From: Gemmatimonas sp.
GTDB lineage: Bacteria; Gemmatimonadota; Gemmatimonadetes; Gemmatimonadales; Gemmatimonadaceae
Direction: 5' to 3'
Length of the DNA stretch: 64,000 nt
NCBI GenBank assembly: GCA_025361705.1
Contig: JANYJW010000021.1
Coordinates: 62,001-126,000, forward strand
Positions 7,943 to 62,426 of the stretch are shown here, piece by piece. The notes beneath the pieces are model-generated. The model worked only from the letters and a program-made list of their open reading frames with translations, did not search any database and was not told the origin of the DNA. How positions within the stretch are numbered: the first letter of the stretch is position 1; each line of letters opens with the position of its first letter. Both the position numbers and the translations under genes were made by a program.

Positions 7943-7991
7943 GGATGGCGGATGGCGGATGGCGGACTACGGACAGCGGACTACGGACGAG
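7943..7991. repeat. 7-bp-period array between rhomboid gene and dnaK
   Basis: Seven consecutive heptamers follow the pattern GGAYNNS: GGATGGC three times, then GGACTAC, GGACAGC, GGACTAC and GGACGAG. The period of exactly 7 continues although the units diverge. It starts 16 bases from the rhomboid start codon. Confidence 0.85.
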
Positions 7992-8110
7992 ATTCTACTT
8001 GGTGTTCGGCTTCAGGGTTAGACGTTCTTCTACTGCCGTATGGTTTCAGGAATCCTGCCGTTTCTGCCATTCGCCTCCACGCAAGTCGTTGTCCTGCCAT
8101 TAGTAACGCA

Positions 8111-8137
8111 CGAATTGCCTGAATTTCTGTCAATTCG
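8111..8137. promoter_or_regulatory. Inverted repeat in dnaK promoter region (operator candidate)
   Basis: CGAATTG (8111-8117) and CAATTCG (8131-8137) form a perfect 7-bp inverted repeat with a 13-bp spacer. The overall span is 27 bp, the same as a CIRCE operator, but the half-site sequence is different. It lies 10 bp upstream of the candidate -35 box. Confidence 0.4.
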
Positions 8138-8146
8138 GCAGGGCTT

Positions 8147-8174
8147 TTGTGGCCCCACCCTTGCCTGATAGTAT
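8147..8174 (+). promoter_or_regulatory. Possible dnaK promoter
   Basis: TTGTGG (8147-8152) and TAGTAT (8169-8174) are spaced 16 bp apart. Transcription would start near 8181, giving a leader of about 85 bases before the ATG at 8267. The match is moderate. Confidence 0.3.
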
Positions 8175-8266
8175 GGCCTAGTCCGGCGAAACCGGCGCCC
8201 CCGACTTGACGTCGGGACACTTCGCGGCGCGGCCGCCGTGCGAACATCCTACCAAACGAGGACCAG

Positions 8267-10198
<1,932 letters not shown>

Positions 10199-10210
10199 TC
10201 AGGGCTGATT

Positions 10211-10315
10211 GATGGCAGATGGCAGATGGCAGATGGCAGATGGCAGATGGCAGAAGGCGGATGGCGGATGGCGGATGGCGGATGGCGGAAGGCAGAAGGC
10301 AGACGTCAGATGGCG
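10211..10315. repeat. 7-bp-period array, forward arm, downstream of dnaK
   Basis: Fifteen heptamers run without interruption: GATGGCA six times, GAAGGCG, GATGGCG four times, GAAGGCA twice, GACGTCA and GATGGCG. It begins 12 bases after the dnaK stop. Confidence 0.92.
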
Positions 10316-10345
10316 GATCGGTGACGACATCGCCGCGAGGGATAT

Positions 10346-10390
10346 CAGCCATCCGCCATCAGCCATCCGCCATCCGCCATCAGCCATCTG
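10346..10390. repeat. 7-bp-period array, reverse-complement arm, upstream of htrA
   Basis: Six heptamers of CMGCCAT type (CAGCCAT and CCGCCAT) are the reverse complement of the array at 10211-10315. The two arms are separated by 30 bases. A transcript through the gap could fold into a stem of roughly 40 bp, so it may act as a dnaK terminator or RNA-stability element. Confidence 0.85.
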
Positions 10391-10471
10391 CTCTCCCCTC
10401 CCCCCCCCCGGGAACCTTCAAGCACGTCCCTGTGTCTTACCCAGCGAACCTTTTCACCGCATAGTTCCCCC

Positions 10472-12022
<1,551 letters not shown>

Positions 12023-12035
12023 TCCGCCAACTGCT

Positions 12036-12067
12036 ATCAGACATCTGACATCAGATGGCAGATGATT
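12036..12067. repeat. Short 7-bp-period element and hairpin after htrA
   Basis: Heptamers AGACATC, TGACATC, AGATGGC and AGATGAT follow the htrA stop. CATCTG (12042-12047) and CAGATG (12052-12057) form a 6-bp stem with an ACAT loop. There is no T-tract, so a terminator role is unproven. Confidence 0.5.
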
Positions 12068-12104
12068 GAGGGCGTCGGTCCTGACGGGCTGGCGCCCTTT
12101 GCCT

Positions 12105-12134
12105 TTGACGGGGGCTGGCCGCGGGGCATACTAT
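12105..12134 (+). promoter_or_regulatory. Promoter of tRNA-Leu
   Basis: TTGACG (12105-12110) and TACTAT (12129-12134) are spaced 18 bp apart, a good housekeeping-sigma promoter. Initiation about 7 bases after the -10 box would fall next to the tRNA 5' end at 12143. Confidence 0.65.
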
Positions 12135-12142
12135 GCACGGAC

Positions 12143-12224
12143 GCGGGAGTGGCGAAACTGGCAGACGCGCCAGACTTAGGATCTGGTGGGGTGACCCTTG
12201 CGGGTTCGAGTCCCGCCTCTCGCA
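12143..12224 (+). tRNA. tRNA-Leu (anticodon TAG)
   Basis: The sequence folds into a class II tRNA. The acceptor stem GCGGGAG pairs with CTCTCGC (12217-12223, one G-T pair) and is followed by discriminator A. The anticodon arm CCAGA-CTTAGGA-TCTGG places TAG at the anticodon. A long variable arm and the T-arm GCGGG-TTCGAGT-CCCGC are present. It reads CUN leucine codons. CCA is not encoded. Confidence 0.95.
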
Positions 12225-12229
12225 CTGAT

Positions 12230-12310
12230 GATTCGGGATTTGGACTCAGGATTTCGATTGCTGGATTTCGATGGCGGAATGCGAGTGGCGATGGTTGGTC
12301 GATCAGGCTG
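12230..12310. repeat. Degenerate 7-bp-period array, forward arm, between tRNA-Leu and tig
   Basis: Heptamers GGATTTG, GACTCAG, GATTTCG, ATTGCTG, GATTTCG, ATGGCGG and relatives follow a 7-bp register with heavy divergence. The GGATTTCGAT word recurs at 14-bp spacing. Confidence 0.6.
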
Positions 12311-12361
12311 GTAACGCGTTGGTGTGGTTAGTCTTGGCGCCGACGCACGGCCCTTGCAGCC

Positions 12362-12426
12362 TCTATCGCCCATCGATGTCCGGCATCGTGATCCGAGTTC
12401 CAATTCCTGAGTCCATATCCTATATT
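12362..12426. repeat. Degenerate 7-bp-period array, reverse-complement arm, upstream of tig
   Basis: On the minus strand this reads GGATATG, GACTCAG, GAATTGG, AACTCGG, ATCACGA, TGCCGGA, CATCGAT. It shares GACTCAGGA with the forward arm at 12230-12310, so the gap again has an inverted pair of heptamer arrays. Confidence 0.55.
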
Positions 12427-12429
12427 TTC
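12421..12429 (+). promoter_or_regulatory. TAnnTTTC-like box upstream of tig
   Basis: TATATTTTC lies 86 bp before the tig ATG. If it is a -7 element, the tig transcript starts just before the hairpin at 12442-12470. Confidence 0.35.
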
Positions 12430-12441
12430 TCTCTATAGTTG

Positions 12442-12470
12442 CCCCCGCCGCCCATACCGGGCGGCGGGGG
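12442..12470 (+). terminator. Strong GC hairpin before tig (terminator or leader hairpin)
   Basis: CCCCCGCCGCCC (12442-12453) and GGGCGGCGGGGG (12459-12470) form a perfect 12-bp stem with an ATACC loop. It is followed by ATTCTTCCCT rather than a clean T-run. It could end the tRNA-side transcription or sit in the 5' leader of tig. Confidence 0.5.
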
Positions 12471-12515
12471 ATTCTTCCCTGTTCGCTTTTTATCGCCGGG
12501 CTCCGGCTGCACGCA

Positions 12516-13760: not shown

Positions 13761-13841
13761 TCGCAGCAGCAGGAAGCACCTGGGCCCCCCGGCCGCAACG
13801 CGACACCACAGGCAGTCTCCACAGCACAGGACGAGAACCGA

Positions 13842-14498
13842 ATGCCGATTATTCCCAACCCGTACGTCATCGAACGGTCGAGCCGCGGCGAGCGCAGCTA
13901 CGACGTCTATTCGCGCCTGCTGATGGACCGCATCATTTTCCTCGGCACGCCGATCAACGACGACGTGGCGAACATGGTGATTGCGCAGCTTCTGTTCCTC
14001 GAGGCGGACAACCCGGGACGCGACATCCACCTGTACCTCAACTCGCCGGGCGGCAGCGTGTCCGCCGGGCTGGCGATGTACGACACCATGCAGTGGCTCA
14101 AGTCGCCGGTGAACACCATCTGCATGGGCATGGCGGCCTCGATGGGCTGCTTCATGCTGGCCGGCGGTCGCAAGGGCAAGCGCTCGGCGCTGCCGCATGC
14201 GCGCATCATGATGCACCAGCCATCGGGCGGGTCGTCGGGCACGGCGGCGGACATCGAGATCCAGGCCAAGGAGATCCTCTACCTGCGCGCCCAGATGAAC
14301 GCCCTGATGTCGAAGCACACCGGGCGTCCGGTGGAACAGATTGAGCGGGACTTCGACCGCGACTTCTACATGTCGGCCGAAGAAGCGAAGGCCTACGGCA
14401 TCATCGACCATGTGGTGACGCCGCGGGAGCAGGATGCCGAGGTCATCGCCGCGGTGGCGTCGGTGGCGTCGGTGTCGTCGGTGTCGTCGACGAAGTAG
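13842..14498 (+). CDS. clpP: ATP-dependent Clp protease proteolytic subunit
   Basis: ClpP forms the tetradecameric chamber that degrades proteins fed in by ClpX. The 218-residue product has the full catalytic triad: S100 (GMAASMG), H125 (MMHQPSGG) and D174 (FDRDFYM). The start [21 protein letters not shown] is the standard N-terminus and probably needs little or no processing. The last residues ([14 protein letters not shown]) are an unusual Ser/Val tail encoded by four 9-bp repeats at 14454-14489; related repeats occur elsewhere in the window. It is 81 bp after tig and 148 bp before clpX. Confidence 0.97.
14454..14489. repeat. 9-bp tandem repeat inside the 3' end of clpP
   Basis: Four units: GTGGCGTCG twice, then GTGTCGTCG twice. 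They encode the [12 protein letters not shown] tail of ClpP. The same two-plus-two arrangement of related 9-mers occurs at 45331-45366. Confidence 0.85.
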
Positions 14499-14646
14499 GT
14501 TGGGGCACGGTGGGGCACGGGCGAGGTTGCCCGGGCAGCACCGCCCAGGGTGTGCTTGGCCCCGGCGGTTGCCGGGTGTTACTCCATGGATGGTGGTGCG
14601 TCGAAGGGGGGTCCCCCTCGGTACGCACCGCCACGGCTGAGGCCCG

Positions 14647-15615
14647 ATGAACTCGATGTCCCACGATCGCCACCTGCGCTGCTCGTTCTGCGGAAAGTCC
14701 AAGGACGCCGTCCGGAAGTTCATTTCGGGTCCGTCCGTGTACATCTGCAACGAGTGCATTGCGCTGTGCAACGAAATCCTCGCCGAGGATGAAGAGCGCG
14801 AGGTTGGCGAGGCGGTGACGAGGGTCCCGGCGCCCCAGGAAATCAAGGACGTCCTCGACCAGTACGTGATTGGGCAGGAGCACGCCAAGAAGGCGCTCGC
14901 CGTGGCGGTGTACAACCACTACAAGCGCATCAACAGCGTCAAGCGCGACGGCGACGTGGAGCTGGACAAGTCCAACATCCTGCTCATCGGCCCGACGGGG
15001 GTGGGCAAGACGCTGCTCGCCCAGACGCTGGCCCGCATCCTCGACGTGCCGTTCACCATTGCCGACGCCACCACGCTGACCGAAGCGGGCTATGTGGGCG
15101 AGGACGTGGAGAACATTCTGGTGCGGCTGCTGCAGGCGGGCGACTTCAACGTCGCCGAGTGCGAGCGCGGCATCGTGTACATCGACGAACTCGACAAGAT
15201 CGCGCGCAAGAGCGAGAACCCGAGCATCACGCGCGACGTGTCGGGCGAGGGCGTGCAGCAGGCGCTGCTGAAGATCCTCGAGGGGACGGTGGCCAGCGTG
15301 CCGCCGCAGGGCGGCCGCAAGCACCCACAGCAGGAATACATCCAGATCAACACCAAGGACATCCTGTTCGTCTGCGGCGGCGCCTTTGACGGGCTCGAGA
15401 AGATCATTGAAGCGCGCATGGGCAAGCGGCAGATCGGCTTCAGCGCCGAGGACCAGTTGGCGGCCAAGGGCGGCGCGTCGACGCACATCTTCCAGCACGT
15501 GGAGCCCGACGATCTGCTGCGCTTCGGGCTTATCCCCGAACTCGTGGGCCGCCTGCCGGTGTCGGTGCCGCTGGAGTCGCTCGACGAGGTGGCGCTGGTG
15601 CGGATCCTCAAGTAA
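14647..15615 (+). CDS. clpX: ClpX unfoldase, N-terminal three quarters, ending at a premature TAA
   Basis: ClpX unfolds substrates for ClpP. This frame encodes 322 residues. The zinc-binding domain comes first ([12 protein letters not shown] and [10 protein letters not shown], four Cys). Walker A is [13 protein letters not shown], the pore-loop region includes [10 protein letters not shown], and Walker B is [11 protein letters not shown]. The reading stops at TAA (15613-15615) within VALVRILK, exactly where normal ClpX continues with an acidic residue and PKNA. The C-terminal small AAA+ domain needed for hexamer function is in the same frame downstream. The start ATG at 14647 has GAGG 5 bases upstream; ATG at 14656 is an alternative. 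See the matching entry and finding. Confidence 0.93.
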
Positions 15616-15900
15616 CCCAAGAACGCCATCACCAAGCAGTTCGCCAAGCTGTTTGAACTCGAGGACGTGACGCTGACGTTCGACGAGGGGTCGCTGAAGG
15701 CGATTGCCAAGAAGGCGCTCGACCGCGGCACCGGGGCGCGCGGGCTGCGCGCCATCGTCGAGGAGCTGCTGCTCGACACGATGTTCGACCTGCCGGGCCG
15801 CGACGACGTGGTGGGCGTGACCGTGACCGAGGCGACGGTGACCAACAAGCAGCCGCCCTTGCTGGACCTGTCGGCGAAGCGGCAGAAGAAGGAAGCGTAG
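15616..15900 (+). pseudogene. clpX: ClpX C-terminal small domain, cut off by an in-frame stop
   Basis: Directly after the TAA, in the same frame, come [18 protein letters not shown], the sensor-2 region [20 protein letters not shown] and the tail ending AKRQKKEA. This matches the normal ClpX C-terminus with no gap, insertion or frameshift. A single change from GAA to TAA would explain the break. Without readthrough, or a new start such as ATG at 15781 or GTG at 15667, this part is not translated. The coding sequence shows no decay, so the stop is either very recent, an assembly or sequencing error, or suppressed. Confidence 0.85.
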
Positions 15901-15946
15901 GGGCGGACGGGGGACGGACGAGGAGAGACGGGAGGCTTCAGGAAGC

Positions 15947-15978
15947 GCAGGGCGGGGGCCTCCCCCGCCCTGCTTTTT
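15947..15978 (+). terminator. Rho-independent terminator after clpX
   Basis: GCAGGGCGGGGG (15947-15958) and CCCCCGCCCTGC (15962-15973) form a perfect 12-bp stem with a CCT loop, followed by five T residues. It lies 47 bp after the clpX stop. Confidence 0.92.
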
Positions 15979-15983
15979 GTCGC

Positions 15984-16036
15984 CGATCGCCGTCCGAATT
16001 CGTGATCCCGGATCGCAATCCGCATTCCATATCCTG
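15984..16036. repeat. Degenerate 7-bp-period array between clpX and lon
   Basis: On the minus strand it reads GGATATG, GAATGCG, GATTGCG, ATCCGGG, ATCACGA, ATTCGGA, CGGCGAT. These heptamers are shared with the arrays near tig and ubiX. Only one arm is present, next to the clpX terminator. Confidence 0.55.
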
Positions 16037-16045
16037 TATCTTTAG
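16037..16045 (+). promoter_or_regulatory. TAnnTTTC-like box immediately before lon
   Basis: TATCTTTAG ends 3 bp before the lon ATG at 16049, and there is no Shine-Dalgarno in that space. If it is a -7/-10 element, the lon transcript begins at or next to its start codon. Confidence 0.45.
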
Positions 16046-16048
16046 CGC

Positions 16049-33604: not shown

Positions 33605-34204
33605 CTACGCGGCGACCGACGGCGCAGGCCACGCGCGCCGCGTGGATTGCCAGATGGCAACGCCGACGAGCACGGTGGCGAGAACGAGCAGCCATCCTCC
33701 GGACGCAGGCCAGGAGGTGGCCGTGAAGTTCAGCAGCTGCTTGGACCCCAGGAGCGGCGGCTGGTAGGTCATGCCGGGAATCTTGATGATCGCGGTCTCG
33801 GTATCGAGATCGTGACCGTACTCGTAGCCCCACTTCCAGTAGTCGTAGAGCCCAGCGCCGAGCACCGTGGCAAGTCCGAGCGTCCATGCATAAAGCACGC
33901 GGCGGCGGCCAAGGGCGGCAACGAGCAATGCCGTGCCGACCATCGCCCCGAGGATCATCGACATGTAGCGCAGCTCGGGAATCGCATCTGGTTCGATGCG
34001 CTTCATCCCGATGTAGTGATTCAATCCGTTGATGCTGTTGAGGTCCTGCTCCTTGACGCCGATCACCGATCGCACGGTGATGAGCATCCCCAACCCCTCC
34101 GGGTACTGCGGCGCGATCAGGTCCACGCGCCAGAGCGGCAACACGAAGCCGGCGCTCATGAGCAGCGCGGCGACGGCAACGAGCAGGCGGGCAGACTTGG
34201 GCAT
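33605..34204 (-). CDS. nosB: Integral membrane protein of the nos cluster (NosB-like)
   Basis: This 199-residue protein has five hydrophobic segments and long periplasmic loops (APQYPEGLGMLITVRSVIG and YDYWKWGYEYGHDLDTETA). A membrane protein of this size directly after nosZ is the pattern of clade II nos clusters, where it is called NosB; its role is not established. The ATG at 34204 is chosen because the longer frame crosses a heptamer repeat array. The symbol rests on position and topology. Confidence 0.72.
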   Translation of the reverse strand: MPKSARLLVAVAALLMSAGFVLPLWRVDLIAPQYPEGLGMLITVRSVIGVKEQDLNSINGLNHYIGMKRIEPDAIPELRYMSMILGAMVGTALLVAALGRRRVLYAWTLGLATVLGAGLYDYWKWGYEYGHDLDTETAIIKIPGMTYQPPLLGSKQLLNFTATSWPASGGWLLVLATVLVGVAIWQSTRRAWPAPSVAA

Positions 34205-42039: not shown

Positions 42040-42073
42040 GCTGTAAAGCTGGAGTGGGGTGGACTTGGGGGGT

Positions 42074-42136
42074 AGATGGGAGATGGCGGAGGGCGGAGGG
42101 CGGAGGGCGGAGGGCGGATGGCAGAGGGCGGATGCC
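42074..42136. repeat. 7-bp-period array, forward arm, upstream of glmM
   Basis: Nine heptamers: AGATGGG, AGATGGC, GGAGGGC four times, GGATGGC, AGAGGGC, GGATGCC. It lies between the divergent glmM and acyl-adenylate genes. Confidence 0.88.
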
Positions 42137-42213: not shown

Positions 42214-42236
42214 CCGTCCGCCATCCGCCATCCGCC
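42214..42236. repeat. 7-bp-period array, reverse-complement arm
   Basis: CCGTCCG, CCATCCG, CCATCCG are the reverse complement of the units at 42074-42136. The arms are 77 bp apart and again make an inverted pair. Confidence 0.75.
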
Positions 42237-42245
42237 TCTATCCCC

Positions 42246-43451
42246 GTGCCCAGCCCACTCTCCCTGCTCCCCATCGCCCTCGCCGCCGGCAACGGTTGCG
42301 TGGATGGCACGCCGGCAGCAGCGCTCGTTGCGGCGGGCTTCACGCTGCTGCAGCGGTCCGCGCCGCTGGTGCGAGCGCTCGCGGGACGCCGGAGCGCGAT
42401 CCTGCTGCCGCCGTCGCGTGCCGCAATCACGGCGCTGGCGGCGAGCGATGGACGCGGCGCGGTGGTCCTCGACCCGTTCGCGCACGCCCCGGCACTCGGC
42501 GCGCAGCTCCGCGAGGCGGACGTGGGAGCGGTCTTCACGACGCGAGCGACCGCCGCGGTGCTCCCCGTGGGTGAGCGCGTGACGGTGTTGCTCGATGACG
42601 CGCCGCGCAGCGCGACGGTCGTGGTCAGCGGCACCGAGGCGCGCATCGACCTCGGCTCGCATTTTGGCCTCGACCTCGAGGGCGAGCCGGAGGAAGGACG
42701 CGACGAGGAGTGCCTCGTGGCCTTTGGCGCGCGCGGCGGCGCGGCGCACACGCATCGCAGCCTGCTGGCTGGCGCGCGTGGCGCCGTGGATGCGACGTCG
42801 ATGCTGCCGCACGACCACGTACTCGCCGCGTTGCCGCTGACGGAGCTGTGGGCCTTTCTCGTTTCCATGGCGGCACCACTGCTGTCTGGTGCGCGGGTCT
42901 CGACGCTACCGCGGTTCGATGCGCCCACCGCGCTGCGTGCCATCGAGGAACAGGGCATCACGATGCTGGCCGCAACGCCATCGACGTACGAGGCGCTGGC
43001 CGCCGCGCTCGAGCAGCGCGGCACACCGTTAAGCGCACCGCCGTTGCGCGTGTGCCTGTGCGGCGGCGCAATGGCCACCATGCCCTTGCAGGAGCGTTGG
43101 CACGCGCTCACGGGCGTCGAGTTGCGCCAGGCATGGGGATGCGCCGAGGCGCCACTCTGCCTCTTCAACGTGCCGCACCTGCCCAATCGGCGCGGCACGG
43201 CGGGCATTCCCTTCCCTGGCGTACGGCTGTCGGTTCGCGACGCCCTTTCACACCGGCCCGTGCCGCACGGTGCACCTGGCGAGCTCTGGGTGCGCGGCGC
43301 GCAGCTCTTCAGCGGCTACGTGGGTAGTGCGCCGGCCGGACGCTGCGTGATCGACGGTTGGCTGCAGACTGGCACCGTGGCGCAGGAGCGCGACGACGGG
43401 GCCTTTGCGCTGGTTCCACCGGCCAACAGTGTGAAAGCTGGCGTCGTATGA
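42246..43451 (+). CDS. Degenerate AMP-binding (acyl-adenylate) family protein
   Basis: This 401-residue protein resembles the large domain of acyl-CoA synthetases (LPLTELWAFLVSMAAPLLSG, TMLAATPSTYEAL, CGGAMATMPLQERWHALTG, then WGCAEAPLCLFNVP and GTAGIPFPGVRLSV). The phosphate loop is eroded: AFGARGGAAHTHRS stands where YTSGTTGxPKG is expected. The C-terminal small domain with the catalytic Lys is missing, since the frame ends shortly after ELWVRGAQLFSGY. It may be inactive or use a different chemistry. GTG at 42246 is chosen because ATG 42201 would translate through a repeat arm. Its stop overlaps the kinase gene (ATGA). Confidence 0.7.
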   Translation: MPSPLSLLPIALAAGNGCVDGTPAAALVAAGFTLLQRSAPLVRALAGRRSAILLPPSRAAITALAASDGRGAVVLDPFAHAPALGAQLREADVGAVFTTRATAAVLPVGERVTVLLDDAPRSATVVVSGTEARIDLGSHFGLDLEGEPEEGRDEECLVAFGARGGAAHTHRSLLAGARGAVDATSMLPHDHVLAALPLTELWAFLVSMAAPLLSGARVSTLPRFDAPTALRAIEEQGITMLAATPSTYEALAAALEQRGTPLSAPPLRVCLCGGAMATMPLQERWHALTGVELRQAWGCAEAPLCLFNVPHLPNRRGTAGIPFPGVRLSVRDALSHRPVPHGAPGELWVRGAQLFSGYVGSAPAGRCVIDGWLQTGTVAQERDDGAFALVPPANSVKAGVV

Positions 43452-52185: not shown

Positions 52186-52203
52186 GCGGGCACAATGGCC
52201 CGC
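52186..52203. promoter_or_regulatory. Inverted repeat next to the 16-bp direct repeats
   Basis: GCGGGC (52186-52191) and GCCCGC (52198-52203) flank ACAATG. Together with the direct repeats it forms a compact, possibly regulatory, block. The rest of 51997-52281 shows no gene. Confidence 0.4.
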
Positions 52204-52281
52204 AGGGCAAATTGGCTGCGGGATCGGGATCGACATTATGGCTCGGCAGTGCCGGGCAGCCGTGCAACTGGTGATGGTGCG

Positions 52282-53384: not shown

Positions 53385-53429
53385 GCACCCCGCGCGACTG
53401 CCCGTCGTTGCAGCGGCAGCAGCGGCTGG

Positions 53430-53903
53430 TCAGTCGGGCAGTTCCACCAACACGGCCTCGACGCGACCATCGGCGATCGTCAATCGCGCCACACTCGGGT
53501 GCAGGTCGAAGCGCGGCGCGCCGGCAGCGCCCGGGTTCACCACCAATACGCCGGCCACGCGCTCGATCTTCTGCACGTGGCTGTGCCCATACACGAGGAC
53601 GTCGAAACCCGGGTACGCCGCCATGAGCCGCGCTGCACTGGGACGCCCCACCTCGTGCCCGTGCGACACGTGGATGCGCACGCCGTCCACCTCCACCACG
53701 CGCTCCTGCGCGAGCCCCGGCGTCCACGGAGCGTCGCAGTTGCCGAAGACGGCCTGCACCGGCGCAATGACCGCCAGCTCGTCGAGGATCGTGTCGCTGC
53801 AGACATCGCCGGCGTGCAGGATCATCGCCACGCCGGCCAGCGCCTCGTGCACCCCGGCCCGCAGCATACCGTGCGTGTCTGAGATGAGACCGATTTCGAT
53901 CAT
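53430..53903 (-). CDS. YfcE/MJ0936-family metallophosphoesterase
   Basis: This 157-residue enzyme is a calcineurin-like phosphodiesterase. Metal ligands are in IGLISDTHG, ILHAGDVCSD, VFGNCDAPW, HVSHGHE and VYGHSHVQK, in the normal order. Members hydrolyse phosphodiesters, and the natural substrate is seldom known. The ATG 53903 overlaps the MFS gene stop by 4 bp (ATGA). It converges on the ThDP beta-subunit gene. Confidence 0.9.
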   Translation of the reverse strand: MIEIGLISDTHGMLRAGVHEALAGVAMILHAGDVCSDTILDELAVIAPVQAVFGNCDAPWTPGLAQERVVEVDGVRIHVSHGHEVGRPSAARLMAAYPGFDVLVYGHSHVQKIERVAGVLVVNPGAAGAPRFDLHPSVARLTIADGRVEAVLVELPD

Positions 53904-55075
53904 GCGAGCACCCGCCGCGAAATTCCACGGAAGACGGCGAGCGCCACGGTCACCGTGATGATCTCGGCCCCGAGCATGCCCGTCATTCCCCACGCGTCGT
54001 GCGCCCAGCCCGCGCCCTTGACCAGCCCCAGCGAGCCCAGCGTGTTGAACGCGATGAACAGGCTCACCTTGGTGGATGCCGCCCCGCCCTTGGCGAGCGC
54101 AAGCGCCATGCCGGTAAGCGCCGCCGTGCATGCGCCGAGCGTCAACGTGTAGCTCGCGGTGAGCACGGCGAACGCCCACGGCTCACGCGGCGACACGAGC
54201 AGGAGCAGCGCGAAGACCCCCTGCGCGGCGCACGCCCAGAAGTAGGCGCGCCGCGGCGGCAGGCGGTCCTCGAACCATCCGCCGGCGAGTGTGCCGATGG
54301 TGATGGCACTGCCGGCCACGAGGCCCAACACAAGCGACACCATGTCCGGTCCCGCGTTCCACTCGCGCGCGACCGCCGAGAAGAGGAACTGCGCATTGCC
54401 AGTGCCGATGGGGAGAAACGCGAGCAGCAGGGCGAGCCGTCCGTCGATCTTCGACACCATGGTCCGCAGTTCGCGCCAGACGTCGCGCGCACGATCGCCG
54501 ATGCGGCCCTCGCCAACGCGCGGGGGTTCACGCAGGGTGAGCAGCGGCAGGTTGCAGGCGAGCACCACGGCAGCGAGCACGGCACCCGCCATCCACGGCG
54601 CCGCCAGATGGCGCACGAGGTACAGCGCCGCGCCGCCGCCAAGCGTCTGCCCCACCATGTTGCCCGTCTGGTAGAAGCCGGCCGCGCGCCCCAGCAGCGC
54701 AGGGTCGCAGTTGTGCAGCAGCAGTCCCTGCAGGGCAAAGGCGATGAACGTCGCCGACAGCGCCCCGGCCAGCACAATTCCAGTCAACAGCGGCAGGGTG
54801 CGCGCACTCATCGGGACGACGCACATCGCGAAGAAGGCCAGCGCGCAGCAGGCGTTGGCCAGCACGTACCAGCGCTTGCGCGAGAGCGTGAGGTCGCCGA
54901 CCGGCGCCCAGAGGAACTTGAATGCCGCCGGCGCAAAGGCGGTGCCGACAATGGTTGCCACCGCGCTCACCGGCAGGCCCGCGCGCGTGGCGAGCCAGCC
55001 GAGCATGACGGCGGGGACGCCGATCATCAAGCCATAGGGGAAATAGAGGATGCCGAAGAGGGCGGGATGGGTCAC
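53900..55075 (-). CDS. MFS transporter (AmpG-like)
   Basis: This 391-residue inner-membrane protein has about 12 hydrophobic helices. FPYGLMIGVPAVMLGWLATR and FKFLWAPVGDLTLSRKRWY resemble the PAT/AmpG branch, which moves muropeptides or acetyl-CoA. The central loop (REPPRVGEGRIGDRARDVW) separates the two halves. The start is GTG at 55075. Its stop overlaps the phosphoesterase gene. Substrate is unassigned. Confidence 0.83.
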   Translation of the reverse strand: MTHPALFGILYFPYGLMIGVPAVMLGWLATRAGLPVSAVATIVGTAFAPAAFKFLWAPVGDLTLSRKRWYVLANACCALAFFAMCVVPMSARTLPLLTGIVLAGALSATFIAFALQGLLLHNCDPALLGRAAGFYQTGNMVGQTLGGGAALYLVRHLAAPWMAGAVLAAVVLACNLPLLTLREPPRVGEGRIGDRARDVWRELRTMVSKIDGRLALLLAFLPIGTGNAQFLFSAVAREWNAGPDMVSLVLGLVAGSAITIGTLAGGWFEDRLPPRRAYFWACAAQGVFALLLLVSPREPWAFAVLTASYTLTLGACTAALTGMALALAKGGAASTKVSLFIAFNTLGSLGLVKGAGWAHDAWGMTGMLGAEIITVTVALAVFRGISRRVLA

Positions 55076-55080
55076 GACGA

Positions 55081-55143
55081 CGATTCAGGATAAGGAATCC
55101 GGATTGCGATTGAGGGCCGCAAATCAGGATTGCGATGGTCGAT
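55081..55143. repeat. Degenerate 7-bp-period array between MFS and ubiX genes
   Basis: GATTCAG, GATAAGG, AATCCGG, ATTGCGA and related words follow a 7-bp register. GGATTGCGAT occurs twice. It shares words with the arrays near tig and lon. Confidence 0.5.
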
Positions 55144-55244
55144 AACCGCGCGCACGAATCGGACGAAGATGCCCACCGCAAACACAAAGGGCCAGCATCC
55201 GCCGGCCCCTGCTGCGCTCGCGATCCCCCGGCTCTCGCCGCCCG

Positions 55245-56761: not shown

Positions 56762-58236
56762 GCGCCCAGCCCAAGCCGCGCCCACACCGCGTCCATCTTG
56801 GCCTTGGTGGCATCGTCCATCGTGATCACCGTGGGCCACGACCGCGCGAAGCCCTCCTCGGGCATCTTCTTCGTGGCGTCGAGGCCCATCTTGGAACCGT
56901 ACGTGAATGCGCGGCTGGCATGATCGAGCACATCCACCGGCCCCATCGTGAAGCGCACGTCGCGCTCGGGGTCGATGTTGTTGAGCGCCACCCACCACGC
57001 CTCCTGCGGGTTGCGCACGTTCACCCAGTCGTCGACGACGACGAGCACCTTGGCCAACGACATCAGCCCCGCGCCCCAGAGCGCGTTCATCACCTTGTAC
57101 GCTTGTCCCGGATAGCTCTTCTTGATCGAAACGAAGACGAGGTTGTGGAAGCCGCCTTCGGCGGGCATGTGGTAATCCACGATCTCGGGCGTCGTCAGCT
57201 TGAGCAGCGGAAGGAAGATGCGCTCGGTGGCGTGGCCGAGGTAGAAATCTTCCATCGGCGGACGTCCGACGATGGTGGCGACGTACGTCATGTCACGCCG
57301 CATCGTCACCGCAGTCACATGCACCTTTGGATAGAGATCGGCCTCGGAGTAGTAGCCCGTGTGATCGCCGAACGGCCCCTCGGTCACGAGTGGCTCGGAC
57401 GGATCGATGTACCCTTCGATGACCAGTTCCGCGTCCCACGGCACCTCGAGGTCGCATGACACCGCCTTCACCAGCCGCACCGGTTCGCGTCGCAGGAAAC
57501 CCGCAAAGATGAACTCGTCGACATTCGGCGGCAGCGGCGCGCTGGCCGCGTACATCGACGCCGGGTCGGCGCCGATGACGATGCACACCGGCATCCGCTC
57601 GCCGCGCTCGGCCATCTCGCGCCAGTGCGCCGCCCCGGTCTTGTGGCGCTGCCAGTGCATCGCCACCGAGCGCTTGTCGAGCTGTTGCACGCGATACATC
57701 CCCACGTTGCGGATGCCGCGCGTCGGGTCCTTGCTGACAACCGCCGTCATCGTGAAGAACGGTCCGCCGTCGTCCGGCCATGTGGTGAGCACCGGAATCT
57801 TGTCGAGGTCGATCTCGTCGCCCTGCCAGACAACTTCCTGACTGGGCGGAGCGCCGTGCTTCACCCGCGGCGGAAATTTGGACAGCTCAAACAGGCGCGG
57901 CAGCAGCGAGAGCTTGCCCAGCAGCCCTTCGGGAACCTTGAGGTCCATCAGCTGCGTGATGCGCGCGCCGTGCTCGTCGAGCTGCGCGACGCCCAGCGAC
58001 AAGGCCATGCGCTTGTGCGATCCGAACAGGTTGAGCGCCACCGGAAACGCCGACACGGTGCCGTCGCGCAGGACGGGGCGCTCAAACACCAGCGCCGGCC
58101 CGCCCCCCGGAAGCTTCATCGCCCGGTCGGCGATCTCGCACATCTCGAGGTGCACCGACACCGGCTCGGCAACGCGCACGAGCTCGCCGATGCCGTCGAT
58201 GGCCTGAATGAAGTCGGATACTGAGTCGATTGCCAT
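56758..58236 (-). CDS. ubiD: UbiD-family decarboxylase
   Basis: This 492-residue enzyme uses prenylated FMN to remove the carboxyl group after prenylation. Family motifs include RNVGMYRVQQLDKRSVAMHW, TEGPFGDHTGYY, VIEGYI and GRPPMEDFYLGHATERIF. Length and domain order are those of UbiD. The ATG is at 58236; the frame upstream is repeat-free but not conserved. It is 11 bp after the methyltransferase gene and overlaps ubiA. In a futalosine-pathway organism this would be the MqnL-type enzyme. Confidence 0.93.
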   Translation of the reverse strand: MAIDSVSDFIQAIDGIGELVRVAEPVSVHLEMCEIADRAMKLPGGGPALVFERPVLRDGTVSAFPVALNLFGSHKRMALSLGVAQLDEHGARITQLMDLKVPEGLLGKLSLLPRLFELSKFPPRVKHGAPPSQEVVWQGDEIDLDKIPVLTTWPDDGGPFFTMTAVVSKDPTRGIRNVGMYRVQQLDKRSVAMHWQRHKTGAAHWREMAERGERMPVCIVIGADPASMYAASAPLPPNVDEFIFAGFLRREPVRLVKAVSCDLEVPWDAELVIEGYIDPSEPLVTEGPFGDHTGYYSEADLYPKVHVTAVTMRRDMTYVATIVGRPPMEDFYLGHATERIFLPLLKLTTPEIVDYHMPAEGGFHNLVFVSIKKSYPGQAYKVMNALWGAGLMSLAKVLVVVDDWVNVRNPQEAWWVALNNIDPERDVRFTMGPVDVLDHASRAFTYGSKMGLDATKKMPEEGFARSWPTVITMDDATKAKMDAVWARLGLGA

Positions 58237-58247
58237 GGCTCCGCCGT

Positions 58248-59012
58248 CTACCGTCTGCTGTCTGCCGTCTTGGTTCCCACATGCACCGCCGCGATCCCGA
58301 AAGACAGTGCACCCCACCGCACGTCGTCGTATCCCGCGCTCCGCATCCGCTCGGCGAGCACCGATCCCTCGGGGAAATTCCGCACCGAATCCGGAAGATA
58401 CGAGTACGCCGTCTTGTGCCCACTGACCAACCCGCCGATGCGTGGCAGGACATGGTGGAAATAGGCGTGGTAGAGCGCCCGCATCAGCCCGGCGGTCGGC
58501 GTCGAGAACTCGAGGATGACAAACCGCGCCCCTGGAGCCAGCGCCCGATGGACCTCCCGCAGGCAGGCATCGAGATCGGCCACATTCCGAATACCGAAGG
58601 CCACAATCGCCCCTGCCAATGTGTTGCCCGCCATCGGCAGCACGAGTGCATCGGCAACCACCGGGCTCACCCGCCGGCCCGTGAGTTTCGCACGTCCCGC
58701 CCGCAACATCGGCTCCGCAAAATCGGCGCCCACCACCTGTCCGGTGAAGCCGGGCCGATCACACAGCGTGGCGGCGACATCGAGTGTGCCAGCGCAGAGA
58801 TCGAGGTACGTCCCCGCCGGCATTCGCTCCCAATTCAGGCGCGAAAGCGCGAAACGCCGCCACATGCGGTCCACGCCCATACTGAGGACGCGGTTGAGCA
58901 GGTCGTAGCGCGGCGCAATGTCGGAGAACATGCGCTGCACATAGGCGCGCTTGACCGCGTCGCCGGCCGCCGCGGCGCTCGCCTCACGCGCCTCGAAGTC
59001 GGTCGCTGGCAT
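58248..59012 (-). CDS. ubiE: UbiE/MenG quinone C-methyltransferase
   Basis: This 254-residue SAM methyltransferase carries out the last step of menaquinone synthesis (demethylmenaquinone to menaquinone). FSDIAPRYDLLNRVLSMGVD is the diagnostic N-terminal motif; the SAM loop is LDLCAGTLDVAATL, and FGIRNVADLDACLREVHR and YSYLPDSVRNFPEG follow. The ATG at 59012 (GTG at 59015 is adjacent) is preceded by GACCTTTCG 6 bases away and lacks a Shine-Dalgarno. It leads a tight operon with ubiD, ubiA and ubiX. It is divergent from the ECF sigma gene. Confidence 0.94.
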   Translation of the reverse strand: MPATDFEAREASAAAAGDAVKRAYVQRMFSDIAPRYDLLNRVLSMGVDRMWRRFALSRLNWERMPAGTYLDLCAGTLDVAATLCDRPGFTGQVVGADFAEPMLRAGRAKLTGRRVSPVVADALVLPMAGNTLAGAIVAFGIRNVADLDACLREVHRALAPGARFVILEFSTPTAGLMRALYHAYFHHVLPRIGGLVSGHKTAYSYLPDSVRNFPEGSVLAERMRSAGYDDVRWGALSFGIAAVHVGTKTADSRR

Positions 59013-59147
59013 CACGCTCGAAAGGTCGCCGGGGCGGCGCGCGCGAGCAAGCGTTCGGGCCGCCAGGCGGACGCCGGCACCATGCCTGTCGGCAACGCGA
59101 CCAGCAACGCGACCGGCCTCCTGCTGGTCGCTCGCATGCGCCGCGGC

Positions 59148-59156
59148 TACCTTTCC
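59148..59156 (+). promoter_or_regulatory. TAnnTTTC box before the ECF sigma gene
   Basis: TACCTTTCC ends 10 bp before the ATG at 59167. The surrounding CGCGGCTAYCTTTCC is shared with the site at 46512. Confidence 0.45.
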
Positions 59157-59166
59157 GCCGCTCCGC

Positions 59167-59769
59167 ATGGCTCCCGCCCTCGACCTCCCCAACCTTCCCG
59201 ACGCCGACGTCGCCCGCCTTGCCCAACAAGGGCGTGAGGCGGCGTTCCGCGAGCTCGTGCGCCGCTACGAACGGCCGGTCTTTTCGCTCGTCTTCCGCAT
59301 GGTGCGCGACAGCGCCACCGCCGAGGACCTGGCCCAGGACACGTTCATCAAGGTCCTGAACCACATCGACAAATACCGCCCCGAGTTCAAGTTCTCCAGC
59401 TGGCTGTTCAAGATCGCCAACAACGTCGCCATCGATCACCTGCGGCGGCGCCAGCTCGACACCATCTCGATGGACGGCTCCCCCAACGCCGCCACCGCCT
59501 CGGACGTCGAGGCGACGTCGTTCGACATCGCCGACCGCTCCGAATCGGCGCTTGACCAGATGGAAGCCAAGGAACTGGGCTCCGCCATCGAGCGCGCCAT
59601 CGGGGCGCTGCGTCCCGAATACCGCTCCTGCATCATGCTGCGCCACGTCGAGGGACGGTCGTACGAGGAAATTGCCGCCACCCTCGACCTCCCCCTGGGC
59701 ACGGTCAAGACCTACATCCACCGCGCCCGGCACCAGCTGCGCGAAGCGCTCGATCACCTCCGGGAGTGA
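59167..59769 (+). CDS. ECF-family RNA polymerase sigma factor (RpoE-like)
   Basis: This 200-residue sigma factor directs RNA polymerase to a stress regulon. Region 2 has AFRELVRRYERPVFSLVFRM, AEDLAQDTFIKVLNHIDKY and FSSWLFKIANNVAIDHLRRR. Region 4 has LRPEYRSCIMLRHVEGRSY, then EEIAATLDLPLGTVKTYIHR. The linker is Ser/Asp-rich. The next gene encodes a zinc-finger anti-sigma factor, which is the classical regulatory partner. Its start is within 10 bp of a TAnnTTTC box. Confidence 0.94.
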   Translation: MAPALDLPNLPDADVARLAQQGREAAFRELVRRYERPVFSLVFRMVRDSATAEDLAQDTFIKVLNHIDKYRPEFKFSSWLFKIANNVAIDHLRRRQLDTISMDGSPNAATASDVEATSFDIADRSESALDQMEAKELGSAIERAIGALRPEYRSCIMLRHVEGRSYEEIAATLDLPLGTVKTYIHRARHQLREALDHLRE

Positions 59770-59843
59770 CGGGGCCCCACCGCCCCGATCTCCCGCTTGA
59801 AACCCATTCTCAGTTCGCCCCGTAAGGCACGCCAGGAGGACCA

Positions 59844-60434
59844 GTGCAACACCGCCACCTGCTATCCAACGAAATCGACCTGCTGCTCGACGGCGAAGCC
59901 GGATTCGGCGTCGCACCGTTGCGCGCGCATGTCGACGACTGCGCCGAGTGCCTCGCGCGCCTCGACGAGGCGCAGGGAGTGGCCGACGCGTTGGAGCGCC
60001 TCCCGCACTTTGCACCGCACGCAGGCTTTGCAGACCGCGTGCTATCGCAGGTGCAGATTGTCGAACCGTGGCACGTGGCCGCGCTCGCCACGGCGCGCCG
60101 GGTGGTGCCGGAATCGCGTCCGCTGCGCGTGCTTGCCGTAGCCGGCGCCGGCGTGGCGTCGGTGACGATCTCGGCCAGCGCCGCGTGGATCGCCCTGAGC
60201 ACCGACCTCACGATGGGCTCGGCGACGGTCCTCACCGGCCGCCTGCGCGACGTCATAATGGACGCCGCAACGCAGGGCCTCGAGCTCCTCCTGGGCTCTG
60301 CGGCGGCCGATGCCGTGCGTGCCAATGGCACGATGGCCGTGACCGCCGCGGGCGTCGCGTTGCTGGCCTCGGTTGGCGTTGCCGCGTTCGGATTCCGGTC
60401 CCTCGCGTCCGCCTCCCGCCAACGCGGGAGCTGA
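59844..60434 (+). CDS. Zinc-finger (ZAS-type) membrane anti-sigma factor
   Basis: This 196-residue protein should bind and hold the upstream sigma factor at the inner membrane. The ZAS motif HX3CX2C is present as H29-x3-C33-x2-C36 (HVDDCAEC). Two hydrophobic segments follow (about 94-118 and 160-183), so it probably crosses the membrane twice. The start is GTG at 59844 with AGGAGG 5 bases upstream. The third gene follows 3 bp after its stop. Confidence 0.88.
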   Translation: MQHRHLLSNEIDLLLDGEAGFGVAPLRAHVDDCAECLARLDEAQGVADALERLPHFAPHAGFADRVLSQVQIVEPWHVAALATARRVVPESRPLRVLAVAGAGVASVTISASAAWIALSTDLTMGSATVLTGRLRDVIMDAATQGLELLLGSAAADAVRANGTMAVTAAGVALLASVGVAAFGFRSLASASRQRGS

Positions 60435-60437
60435 CCC

Positions 60438-61577
60438 ATGCGTCGTTCCCTGACGGCTGCCGCTGCGGTCATTCTCGCGCTCGGTGGCGCGGACGGTGCG
60501 CACGCCCAGAGCCCCGCGACGGCTGCCTCTGCGACGCCGCCTGCCGCAGCGCCCTCCGCGGCGGCCCGTGACTCGTTTACGCAGGCCCTCGACCGCGAGC
60601 GCGCCACCCCTGCCGGCCGCACGTTGCCTGCAGCCGACCGCTTTGCGTGGGGTGACCTGACGATCCCCGCTGGCGCATCGGCCGATGGGCCGGTGGCGGC
60701 GGCGCATGGCACCGTCAACGTGCGCGGCCTGGTGAATGGCGACGTCTTCGCGTTTGGCGGCGACGTCGTGGTGCATGCTGGCGGCGAGGTGACTGGCGCC
60801 GCGCGCGCGGTGCGCGGCAAGGTGATCATCGATGGCGGACGCGTGGGCGGCGAACTGCGCGCCTCGGCGCCGGCCGGCGCGGCAGCATCGTCCACCCCGC
60901 CGCTCACCGGCGCAGCCGCCGTGCAGCATGCGCTGAAGATCACCGCCGGCTGGTTGGTCGTGATTCTGCTGGTCGGCCTGGGCGTGATCGTCTTTTCTGG
61001 CGCGCAACTCGAGGCCGTAGCCGAAGGACTCGAGCAGCGGTTCACGACGGCGCTCGTGCTCGGCATCGCGGGTCAGGTGGCCATGCTTCCCCTGCTCGCC
61101 ATGCTCTGCCTCGCGTTGGCGCTCACGCTCGTGGGCATCCTCCTCATTCCGTTCGCGATTGTGGCGTATGTCCTCGGCGCGGCCGGACTCGTGACGCTTG
61201 GTGCGCTTGCCGCGACCACCGTGGCCGGCCATGCCATTGTGCGTGAAGGCGCCAACGTGCGCGTGCGCGCCGTGCAATCGTTGGTCATCGGCACCGTGCT
61301 GCTGGTGCTGCCGTGGATCGCGGCGGCGTTGCTCGCAAACAGTAGGTGGGGCGAGATGGCGGCGCGCCTGGTTGCCGTGGCACTGACGTGGGTGGCAGCG
61401 AGCGCGGGACTTGGCGCGGCACTGATGGCTCGGGGCGGCGTGCGCCGCGTGCACGTGCATCTGGCGTCGGCCGAGGTGTCGCACGCGGCATGGCAGACGC
61501 CAACGCCGATTGGCGGGATCGTGGCCGCGCGCCGGCCGGCAGAGACGCCGTCGTCGCCGACGGGCAGTCCGCGCTGA
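60438..61577 (+). CDS. Exported membrane protein with bactofilin-like repeats
   Basis: This 379-residue protein has a signal peptide (SLTAAAAVILALGGADGAHAQ). A Pro/Ala linker leads to a short repeat region resembling polymer-forming bactofilin strands (GTVNVRGLVNGDVFAFGGDV, then EVTGAARAVRGKVIIDGG, about 90-140). Five or six transmembrane helices follow (about 160-345). The last gene of the sigma/anti-sigma operon, it may be an envelope target or co-regulator. Function is unknown; a similar two-part layout occurs in uncharacterised membrane proteins. Confidence 0.75.
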   Translation: MRRSLTAAAAVILALGGADGAHAQSPATAASATPPAAAPSAAARDSFTQALDRERATPAGRTLPAADRFAWGDLTIPAGASADGPVAAAHGTVNVRGLVNGDVFAFGGDVVVHAGGEVTGAARAVRGKVIIDGGRVGGELRASAPAGAAASSTPPLTGAAAVQHALKITAGWLVVILLVGLGVIVFSGAQLEAVAEGLEQRFTTALVLGIAGQVAMLPLLAMLCLALALTLVGILLIPFAIVAYVLGAAGLVTLGALAATTVAGHAIVREGANVRVRAVQSLVIGTVLLVLPWIAAALLANSRWGEMAARLVAVALTWVAASAGLGAALMARGGVRRVHVHLASAEVSHAAWQTPTPIGGIVAARRPAETPSSPTGSPR

Positions 61578-61583
61578 CGGCTG

Positions 61584-62342
61584 CTACGCTGCGCCGCCGT
61601 CGCGGCGCAGCGTCACCGGCGCACCGCGGCCAATGCCCAGCGTGCGCGACGCATTGCCACCGCGCACTGCCACTTCAATGAGCCCGTGCGACCCGACGAG
61701 CGCGAGCAGTGCGCCTTCGATGACGTCACCGTAGACGCGAGAAATGCGCAGGAGCGTGCCGGCGAGCTCCACCGTCCCCTCGCCGCGCCCCGTCAGGTTG
61801 GTGATGAGGTTGCCGAATCGGTCGACAGCCAGCACCTGCCCGTCCTGCCCTCCGTCGGCGCGCCGTTGCGCTTCGGGCGTGCGGCGCAGGGCCACATCGC
61901 TGCACGACGTCCCCAGCATCTCCAGCGAGTCGCCGCACAGCAGACGCACTGCAGCCGGCGCAAAGACATCGCGGCCGTGGAACGTGGGAGCGGCGCCCTG
62001 CGGAATCTCAATCGACACGGCGCGCGCGCCCGGCACGAGCATGGCCGGCGACAACACGCCGTTGTCGGGGCCCACGGCAAACCGGCCATCGCTCTCGATG
62101 GCCAGCGCCTTGCGCGACGTGCCGACCTCGGGATCGACGACGACCACGTGCACAGTCCCTGCAGGAAAGCGGCGCCAGTAGCGGGCAAACGCCAGGCGCG
62201 CGAATTCAACGTCCTGCGCCGGGACGTCGTGCGACACATCCACGAGCTGCGCCGTTGGCGCACCCGAGAGCAGCACGCCCTTCATCTCGGCGACGTAGCC
62301 GTCGGCAGTGCCGAAGTCGGTGAGGAGGGTGACGAGGGACAT
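61584..62342 (-). CDS. SAM hydrolase/SAM-dependent halogenase-fold protein (DUF62)
   Basis: This 252-residue protein belongs to the SAM hydroxide adenosyltransferase (duf62) family, which hydrolyses S-adenosylmethionine to adenosine and methionine. LTDFGTADGYVAEMKGVL and VDPEVGTSRKALAIE carry the active-site residues. GPDNGVLSPAM, TFHGRDVFAPAA and DRFGNLITNL complete the signature. Its stop lies 6 bp from the converging membrane-protein stop. There is no halogenase-type insertion evident. Cellular role is uncertain. Confidence 0.9.
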   Translation of the reverse strand: MSLVTLLTDFGTADGYVAEMKGVLLSGAPTAQLVDVSHDVPAQDVEFARLAFARYWRRFPAGTVHVVVVDPEVGTSRKALAIESDGRFAVGPDNGVLSPAMLVPGARAVSIEIPQGAAPTFHGRDVFAPAAVRLLCGDSLEMLGTSCSDVALRRTPEAQRRADGGQDGQVLAVDRFGNLITNLTGRGEGTVELAGTLLRISRVYGDVIEGALLALVGSHGLIEVAVRGGNASRTLGIGRGAPVTLRRDGGAA

Positions 62343-62398
62343 CGTTCGAGATCCGGTGGGGGGCGAGTACCGAGAACGACAATGGACGCTGTGGGCGG

Positions 62399-62426
62399 TA
62401 CGCTTTACGCTCTACGCTGTACGCCG
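62399..62426. repeat. 7-bp-period array between the SAM hydrolase and mrp
   Basis: TACGCTT, TACGCTC, TACGCTG, TACGCCG: four units with exact 7-bp spacing. The core differs from the GGATGGC arrays, but the period is the same. Confidence 0.75.

Follow-up and report, generated by a model that had tools for sequence, protein, structure and literature searches.

Inward-facing arrays of short tandem units at gene edges in a Gemmatimonas genome and its relatives

Background

Tandem heptamers occur at multiple loci of heterocystous cyanobacteria as short tandemly repeated repetitive (STRR) heptanucleotides, and the palindromes of the repetitive extragenic palindrome (REP) and bacterial interspersed mosaic element (BIME) type, which go together with a REP-associated tyrosine transposase (RAYT), are extragenic and form inverted pairs near gene ends. 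G-rich heptamer arrays with the units GGGAATC in Xanthomonas and GGGGAYT in Nostoc were described by Rehm et al. 2015 (PMC4692102), where Calothrix heptanucleotides are also mentioned. In the passages of that paper on array placement, about 90% of the Xanthomonas arrays are intergenic, Xanthomonas campestris pv. campestris (Xcc) has 70 convergent inverted pairs, and G-rich heptamer arrays often lie 0-50 bp from stop codons (coding strand) or start codons (non-coding strand), with the gene context kept in a relative and length and sequence varying. Here we analyse short tandem arrays in a stretch of 64,000 nucleotides from Gemmatimonas sp. (assembly GCA_025361705.1, contig JANYJW010000021.1, positions 62,001 to 126,000), called the window below, together with the rest of its genome and related genomes.

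A second heptamer, TAACTGA, forms direct repeats in Beggiatoaceae, Cyanobacteria and Bacteroidetes; as reported in PMC4679880, the main genome contains 169 direct-repeat sets and one indirect repeat. For Gemmatimonadota, no description of arrays of such a kind was found in full-text searches of one open-access library, which lacks most subscription papers, and the available passages of PMC12699852 mention neither Gemmatimonadota nor heptanucleotides.

Results and discussion

Polarity, placement and pairing of the arrays

A preliminary description of the window had centred on a strict 7-bp period and overlooked polarity and inverted pairing. More general than the period are a purine-inward polarity at gene edges, the matching of arms within a gap, and replaceable units at lasting slots. 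The window's genome (2.97 Mb in 71 contigs, 93% complete) was scanned in 81 stretches with 1,419,002 bases (1.42 of 2.97 Mb), namely the window and 80 further stretches, of which 20 were picked on contigs with GATGGCA matches and 60 were first contig pieces. Genes were taken from our own gene caller, their start codons being unverified, and arrays were called at a lag segment score of at least 14. Bounded gaps of at least 40 bp held 60 of the 63 intergenic period-7 arrays, and in 51 of these 60 the 5' end of the G-rich strand was nearer to the adjacent gene. The median distance to that gene was 3 bp on the stop side (n=32) and 13 bp on the start side (n=28).

A more sensitive arm detector (score 10; periods 7, 8, 10 and 11) was run on sampled sequence from six members of the genus, which comprised 834 gaps between 60 and 900 bp long. 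Arms were detected in 144 gaps, and 149 of 180 arms kept the polarity. At this threshold lag 7 gave 125 segments, lag 11 gave 32, lag 10 gave 20 and lag 8 gave 5; because lags 9 and 12, to which no family belongs, also yielded segments (15 and 18), part of the weaker arms must be due to chance. Arms on both strands were present in 31 gaps, facing inward in 30, and their units matched with at most one mismatch in 24 gaps and with two mismatches in one, six being unmatched. The mean distance between paired arms was 1.68 compared with 3.38 when right arms were permuted within a genome, and none of 2000 permutations was as low. The single outward-facing case is found in congener G001 (L226:10731-10919).

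Base composition may account for part of the polarity. Array-free leaders are already C-rich in the genus and in tig loci of other genera, and hardly so in a genome of another genus of the family (G014); start-side polarity may therefore follow composition. On the stop side a pre-existing skew was rejected as the cause, the skew of array-free sequence being small (-0.05 to 0.09, and at most 0.13 in longer gaps). Single copies of the unit also pointed inward (38 versus 10 outward), but a reversed control word did likewise (15 versus 5), so this bias is not specific.

Period of the arrays

The preliminary description had given twelve stretches of the window an exact 7-bp step. Each was tested by its maximal lag-7 segment score, with 10 bp added per side, against 1000 dinucleotide shuffles. 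Eight went beyond the shuffles: those starting at 7943, 10211, 10346, 34213, 42074, 42214 and 62399 were equalled by none, and the one at 12036 by one. At the other four, shuffles scored as high in 187 (12230), 324 (12362), 46 (15984) and 305 (55081) of 1000 cases. With slightly trimmed coordinates, the mean lag-7 match of these four, in the same order, was reached by 25, 0, 0 and 15 of 2000 shuffles and the lag-13 match by 0, 1, 10 and 0; matching was raised at lags 7, 13, 20 and 26, up to 0.71 at lag 26. These four loci are read as 13-bp repeats of alternating 6- and 7-bp steps. The 13-bp core GGATTGCGAT also followed the polarity in the window's genome, with 13 copies pointing inward and none pointing outward in gap halves, and three in the coding sequence examined.

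Over the 1.42 Mb scanned, intergenic DNA had a sharp peak at lag 7. Its match there was 0.337, compared with about 0.30 at adjacent lags, and the signal recurred at lags 14, 21 and 28, whereas coding DNA gave 0.271 and no peak. In the 672 gaps compared with shuffled sequence, 62 arrays were observed and none in each of 20 shuffled sets. Arrays at lag 7 were intergenic in 63 cases and coding in 5; the corresponding numbers were 3 and 11 at lag 6, 0 and 1 at lag 8, 4 and 24 at lag 9, 1 and 0 at lag 10, 4 and 1 at lag 11, 12 and 28 at lag 12, and 5 and 0 at lag 13. Period 7 was thus the commonest intergenic period in this genome, as it was in 80 tig loci (34 arrays at lag 7 against 4, 6 and 14 at lags 8, 10 and 11). 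As near relatives carry periods 8, 10 and 11 at the same orthologous gaps (see below), period 7 is not the invariant, and a step specific to 7 nt is not supported in that role. A strict 7-bp period everywhere is ruled out by these relatives and by the four loci of the window, and the earlier observation is overall partly confirmed.

Unit sequences

Units had been described as differing between loci and as too varied for simple copying. Minority units such as GACGAGC and TACGCTN do exist, but GGATGGC, GATGGCA, CAGCCAT and GGAGGGC represent a single unit, read in another register or on the other strand or slightly varied. Among the 68 period-7 units of the window's genome 34 contain an exact GATGGC and 49 conform to GAYGGNR when register and strand are left free (33 and 46 of the 63 intergenic ones), and exact units are unevenly distributed over genomes, which speaks against excessive variety. 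For 70 arrays, four units of our own choice and nine genomes the chi-square of exact-unit use was 112, the maximum of 5000 permutations being 52. A genome thus leans towards its own units, as a bias and not as a strict rule.

Within arrays, neighbouring units differed at 470 positions compared with 704 (sd 18) when unit order was permuted (68 arrays with at least six units; periods 7, 10 and 11). Neighbouring units are therefore alike beyond chance, which points to local tandem duplication and supports this part of the earlier interpretation.

Two sequence-based explanations were rejected. A G-quadruplex (G4) is not the basis of the arrays, the canonical pattern of four G3 tracts being present in just 4 of 59 strong 7-bp arrays. 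DNA uptake sequences are enriched as single copies genome-wide, coding DNA included; the unit words were not enriched in coding DNA of the window's genome (observed/expected 0.90-1.06, six words).

Arrays in related genomes

The pattern is not absent from relatives: each of the 11 genomes searched from the genus has GAYGGNR triples (68-439 matches), as do two of eight further genomes from the family, and four of twelve from the order have 1-4 matches. The reversed control of this search was high in several congeners and equal to the pattern in G004 and G005; it is a poor control, since some congeners have genuine units that correspond to the reversed variants. The congeners (G001-G010) are represented by one genome per species, and five of them were sampled at 78-200 kb each. 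The sample of G002 was almost free of arrays. The samples added 10-bp units, GACAGAGTAC and GACAGAGAAC, and the 11-bp unit GAGAGACAACA. The latter word occurs in 6 of 249 genomes of the phylum, all in the window's genus (1 of 112 genera). Among the eight genus members drawn, it had 85-185 matches in G001, G005, G006 and G008, four in G002, one in G004 and none in G003 or the window's genome. No intergenic array of any period from 4 to 16 was detected in a 176-kb sample of G014. The 71 more distant tig loci contained 16 intergenic period-7 arrays with mostly other units, 11 of which had the same polarity. A more distant locus, L101 from a metagenome-assembled genome (MAG) of Gemmatimonadota, has unusually long period-7 arrays at 5257-5395 (139 bp) and 14290-14493 (204 bp) with the consensus GTCCCCA and CCAGTCC.

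Orthologous gaps were compared with nine loci (L031-L039) whose trigger-factor identity is 83-87% and which on that identity we assume to belong to the window's genus. Between dnaK and htrA, the unit is GATGGCA in the window, GATGGGA in L031, GATGGTA in L034, GACGGTG in L039 and of 8 bp in L035, always with inverted arms; no array was detected in L032 or in the short gap of L036. Between clpX and lon, inspection by eye revealed 11-bp units in L034 and L037, 10-bp units in L039 and 7-bp units in L036, each followed by a GC-rich palindrome, and no clear array on the stop side in the window or L032. The gap downstream of htrA, in which the window has its weak array (12036..12070), contains arrays of 7- or 11-bp units in relatives. 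At one convergent junction the genes are 1 bp apart in the window and, as judged by eye, 14 bp apart in L036, whereas L034 and L039 have two-armed gaps of 69 and 107 bp there. In 119 comparisons of orthologous gaps, arrays were present in both genomes in 18, only in the window's genome in 13, only in the relative in 15 and in neither in 73 (odds ratio 6.7); the p-value of this association is overstated, because window gaps were reused and weak two-unit matches and G014 comparisons included. Taken together, the arrays look like continually rewritten sequence rather than fixed regulatory sites.

Arrays and genes of the window

The arrays of the window and the genes that bound them are listed in Table 1. 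Inverted pairs are formed by the arrays at 10211 and 10344, 42071 and 42214, and 12226 and 12362. That all arrays lie in gaps, as had been stated, is true of six window arrays with a score of at least 14, which are wholly in called gaps. Tandem Repeats Finder (TRF; minimum score 30, 76 rows) returned intergenic period-7 rows at 7930-7988, 10211, 10344, 12036, 34211, 42085, 42217 and 62399, but four others (19901, 25042, 51235 and 58243) are in or largely in called genes.

Table 1. Tandem arrays of the window and genes next to them
Feature	Position	Strand	Support	Context
7-bp array, GGATGGC to GGACTAC variants	7930..7988	+	Score 27; 0/1000 shuffles; TRF	2 bp off start of minus-strand gene 7148-7927, running into gap
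7-bp array, 15.4 units GATGGCA/G	10211..10318	+	TRF; lag-7 scan; 0/1000 shuffles	12 bp past dnaK stop, coding strand is the purine-rich strand; left arm of inverted pair
7-bp array, ATGGCTG/ATGGCGG	10344..10388	-	TRF; lag-7 scan; 0/1000 shuffles	Start first given as 10346; right arm of dnaK-htrA inverted pair
Weak 7-bp array	12036..12070	+	Score 9.5; 1/1000 shuffles	Past htrA stop
Degenerate 13-bp (6+7) array	12226..12300	+	Lag-13 match 0.51, 0/2000 shuffles	Directly abuts 3' side of tRNA-Leu gene; left arm of inverted pair
Degenerate 13-bp (6+7) array	12362..12426	-	Lag-13 match 0.50, 1/2000; lag-7 match 0.50, 0/2000	Right arm of tRNA-tig pair
13-bp (6+7) array	15984..16040	-	Lag-7 match 0.56, 0/2000; lag-13 match 0.48, 10/2000; lag-26 match 0.71	Ends 8 bp ahead of lon start; minus strand purine-rich; words common to other gaps of the genome
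7-bp array, GACGAGC/GACGGAA	34211..34264	+	Lag-7 scan; 0/1000 shuffles	6 bp off start of minus-strand gene 33605-34204
7-bp array, GGAGGGC/GGATGGC	42071..42132	+	TRF; lag-7 scan; 0/1000 shuffles	Divergent gap, left gene 49 bp away; left arm of inverted pair
Short 7-bp array, TCCGCCA (minus strand GGATGGC)	42214..42240	-	Score 13.5; 0/1000 shuffles	Adjoins start of gene 42246-43451; right arm of pair
13-bp array, GATTCAGGATAAG-type	55076..55143	+	Lag-13 match 0.52, 0/2000 shuffles	Abuts start of minus-strand gene 53900-55075
Short outlier 7-bp array, TACGCTN	62399..62430	- (by G over C)	Score 15; 0/1000 shuffles	Gap flanked by minus-strand genes at distances of 56 and 39 bp
dnaK	8267		Pfam HSP70	
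htrA	10472		Pfam	
tig	12516		Pfam	
lon	16049		Pfam	
tRNA-Leu	12143-12225			

An Rfam search of the window returned a single tRNA and nothing else. Genes in the left part that we take from their context to be clpP and clpX complete the neighbourhood; a small open reading frame (ORF) at 15667-15900 is the end of clpX, and the gap before lon is therefore the clpX-lon gap. An in-frame stop at 15613-15615 breaks clpX at codon 323, whereas L032 reads through the position; the stop is either a consensus error of the MAG or a recent mutation. A run of ten C is located at 10400-10409, shortly past the right-hand array of the dnaK-htrA gap.

Origin and maintenance of the arrays

Tentatively, we favour the reading that these are dispersed short tandem arrays with fast turnover, which are homogenised within a genome and tolerated at gene edges. 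An arm would lengthen by replication slippage or unequal exchange, and a template switch across the quasi-palindrome could copy one arm onto the other and so keep the arms complementary. Quasipalindrome template switching has been described in E. coli (PMC7202029), and PMC8794818 treats template switching as an origin of hairpins. Since the arms of one gap match while units change between species, the arms change together; such joint change would result from quasipalindrome template switching, but equally from selection of a hairpin. Now and then a unit may also spread by ectopic copying from one short array to another, by which a genome would come to lean to its own words, and arrays would persist only where no gene is broken, from a stop or start codon inwards. 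Transcript-end hairpins may be one use of some two-armed arrays, a use that would be a by-product for most arrays.

Several observations weigh against this reading. Nine of the 60 placed arrays and 31 of the 180 arms run against the polarity, and in 7 of 31 pairs the arms differ by more than one mismatch. Slippage or template switching by itself leaves the polarity at stop codons unexplained. The homogenising step, in which units would spread between loci, is inferred solely from the distribution of units. The distance between 7-bp units was hardly smaller within than between genomes (1.905 versus 1.972; 140 of 500 permutations gave as large a difference), a null result that reveals how diverse the window's genome itself is and for which reason 'own words' can mean only a bias in exact units. 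Finally, the shared occupancy of slots is also compatible with selection for the slot.

That the arrays are selected RNA elements appears possible but on balance doubtful. On this reading, the arrays are parts of transcript ends, and the two arms form a hairpin that tolerates register shifts and acts in termination or in protection of the 3' end; the sense strand is purine-rich past a stop codon and the leader pyrimidine-rich before a start codon, and tandem units buffer the stem against insertions and deletions. The dependence of polarity on the type of gene boundary and the shared occupancy of orthologous gaps fit this proposal, as does folding in part. In the window, the dnaK-htrA gap folds at -130.6 kcal/mol (z -4.2) and the tRNA-tig gap (12225-12430) at z -6.3. 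Six of seven dnaK-htrA gaps fold at z of -2.6 or lower in spite of their different sequences, and the armless gap of L036 does not; of the six tRNA-tig gaps folded, four are foldable, but those of L031 (z -0.1) and L032 (z -0.4) show no excess. The RNA structure suggested in the preliminary description thus applies to the two-armed gaps, which fold as long hairpins, but 111 of the 144 array gaps have a single detectable arm, and co-directional gaps with one arm (62 gaps of 80-320 bp) are barely above shuffled structure (median z -0.73). Two-armed gaps are scarcer between divergent genes (2 of 27 versus 28 of 117, p 0.07), which speaks for RNA elements; that both divergent cases also have matched arms, though their transcripts run apart, speaks for copying between arms.

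Array-free convergent gaps of 80-320 bp often fold strongly as well, with median z of -5.5 in the window's genome (24 gaps), -8.4 in congeners (26) and -8.6 in G014 (7), and less so in tig loci of other genera (-2.6; 18 gaps); they are possibly bidirectional terminators. Long hairpins in convergent gaps hence do not depend on arrays, even in another genus, which counts against a hairpin role of the arrays. Terminator hairpins located past stop-side arrays were rejected as an explanation, being no stronger than those of array-free gaps (66 versus 335; p 0.12).

In six genomes of the genus, 28 starts had an array no more than 8 bp away, and all of them lacked a Shine-Dalgarno-like motif; in array-free gaps 197 of 794 starts had one. 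This is consistent with pyrimidine-rich leaders; however, a pyrimidine-rich array cannot hold such a motif, and its absence therefore indicates tolerance and is no proof of function. In the genus, array-free starts as placed by our own caller have the motif in just the 197 of 794 cases given above.

A third reading, which we regard as unlikely, is that a genome-wide copying process acting without RAYT or reverse transcriptase overwrites whole arms at lasting slots with the current unit (7, 8, 10, 11 or 13 bp), the arms staying complementary. If true, the arrays would be written in species dialects and would represent concerted evolution among dispersed sites just about 20-120 bp long. Writing of the arrays by a RAYT-REP system or by a reverse transcriptase or telomerase was rejected, as neither a Y1_Tnp (PF01797) nor an RVT_1 match was found in the window's genome by Pfam search. 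Among the ten congeners, Y1_Tnp was missing from eight, with one match each in G006 and G010, and RVT_1 was present once, in G006.

Independent microsatellites, each array slipping locally by 7 nt and loci never exchanging, are an improbable explanation. An excess of heptamers in many bacteria, with slippage as the suggested cause, is stated in PMC4692102; the prevalence of period 7 among intergenic arrays of the 80 tig loci and the null unit-distance test agree with it. The recurrence of one unit in many unrelated gaps within a genome, matched arms, the uneven use of exact units between genomes and other periods in the same slots all argue against it.

Very unlikely, finally, is a REP-like or miniature inverted-repeat transposable element (MITE)-like mobile element, inserted between genes as an arm-centre-arm unit by a trans-acting enzyme: gaps gained with two arms, a polarity that would be inherent to the element and the restriction of the 11-bp word to one genus would suit it, but no shared body was found and Y1_Tnp is missing as described above. 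After masking of the arrays in the sampled stretches, 46 matches between gaps within a genome comprised 26 arms, 11 words of the 13-bp family and 9 others, and no common centre. A dispersed stretch of about 121 bp with inverted ends was encountered in G006, 87% alike between two gaps and in part present in a third (L260:18341-18771, L260:11869-12625 and L257:7298-7550); it is apparently a small repeat element of its own kind.

Comparison with known systems

Resemblance to insertion sequences or classical REP families had been denied in the preliminary description. REP and BIME palindromes are indeed unlike the present arrays, which consist of tandem units without a palindrome of their own in a genome without Y1_Tnp. 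Tandem repeats of archaeal Borgs, as presented in passages of PMC9879509, are likewise fast-evolving, partly located in gaps and genome-specific; unlike the arrays here, they have perfect units (18-21 nt in the examples), are extrachromosomal, lie in ORFs in about half of the cases and are said to be independent in origin. With the TAACTGA arrays the present ones share period and position, the TAACTGA heptamers being found in gaps, many just before start codons, with a patchy distribution and next to genes without functional pattern. They differ in having one fixed heptamer, and the relevant passages of PMC4679880 contain no purine-inward rule; the TAACTGA unit was found in none of the 68 period-7 arrays of the window's genome.

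The closest described kind is that of the intergenic heptamer arrays of Xanthomonas and Nostoc. As far as the described parts of that system (PMC4692102) allow comparison, period 7, the mostly intergenic location (63 versus 5 coding here) and the G-rich 5' end nearest the ORF (51 of 60) are common to both, as are the closeness to stop codons and a gene context that is conserved between relatives, and the convergent inverted pairs of Xanthomonas have their counterpart in 30 of 31 two-armed gaps. In contrast, the unit here is GAYGGNR instead of GGGNATC or GGGGAYT and few arrays (4 of 59) have a canonical G4 pattern, periods 7, 8, 10 and 11 share slots between species, units are replaced from one relative to another, and the phylum is unrelated. 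The layout is thus known, and the arrays of Gemmatimonadota are a variant of it with another unit, lineage and set of periods.

A layout for which a G-quadruplex role was considered in Xanthomonas recurs with mostly non-G4 units and several periods per slot. This argues against quadruplexes and a 7-nt step as the shared cause and in favour of polarity and arm matching. For annotation, arrays should be expected in this lineage directly past stop codons and ahead of start codons, where leaders without a Shine-Dalgarno motif are tolerated. A genus with many genomes offers a natural system for asking how short dispersed repeats become homogenised and whether long hairpins can be kept up by template switching, within a layout otherwise known from Xanthomonas and Nostoc.

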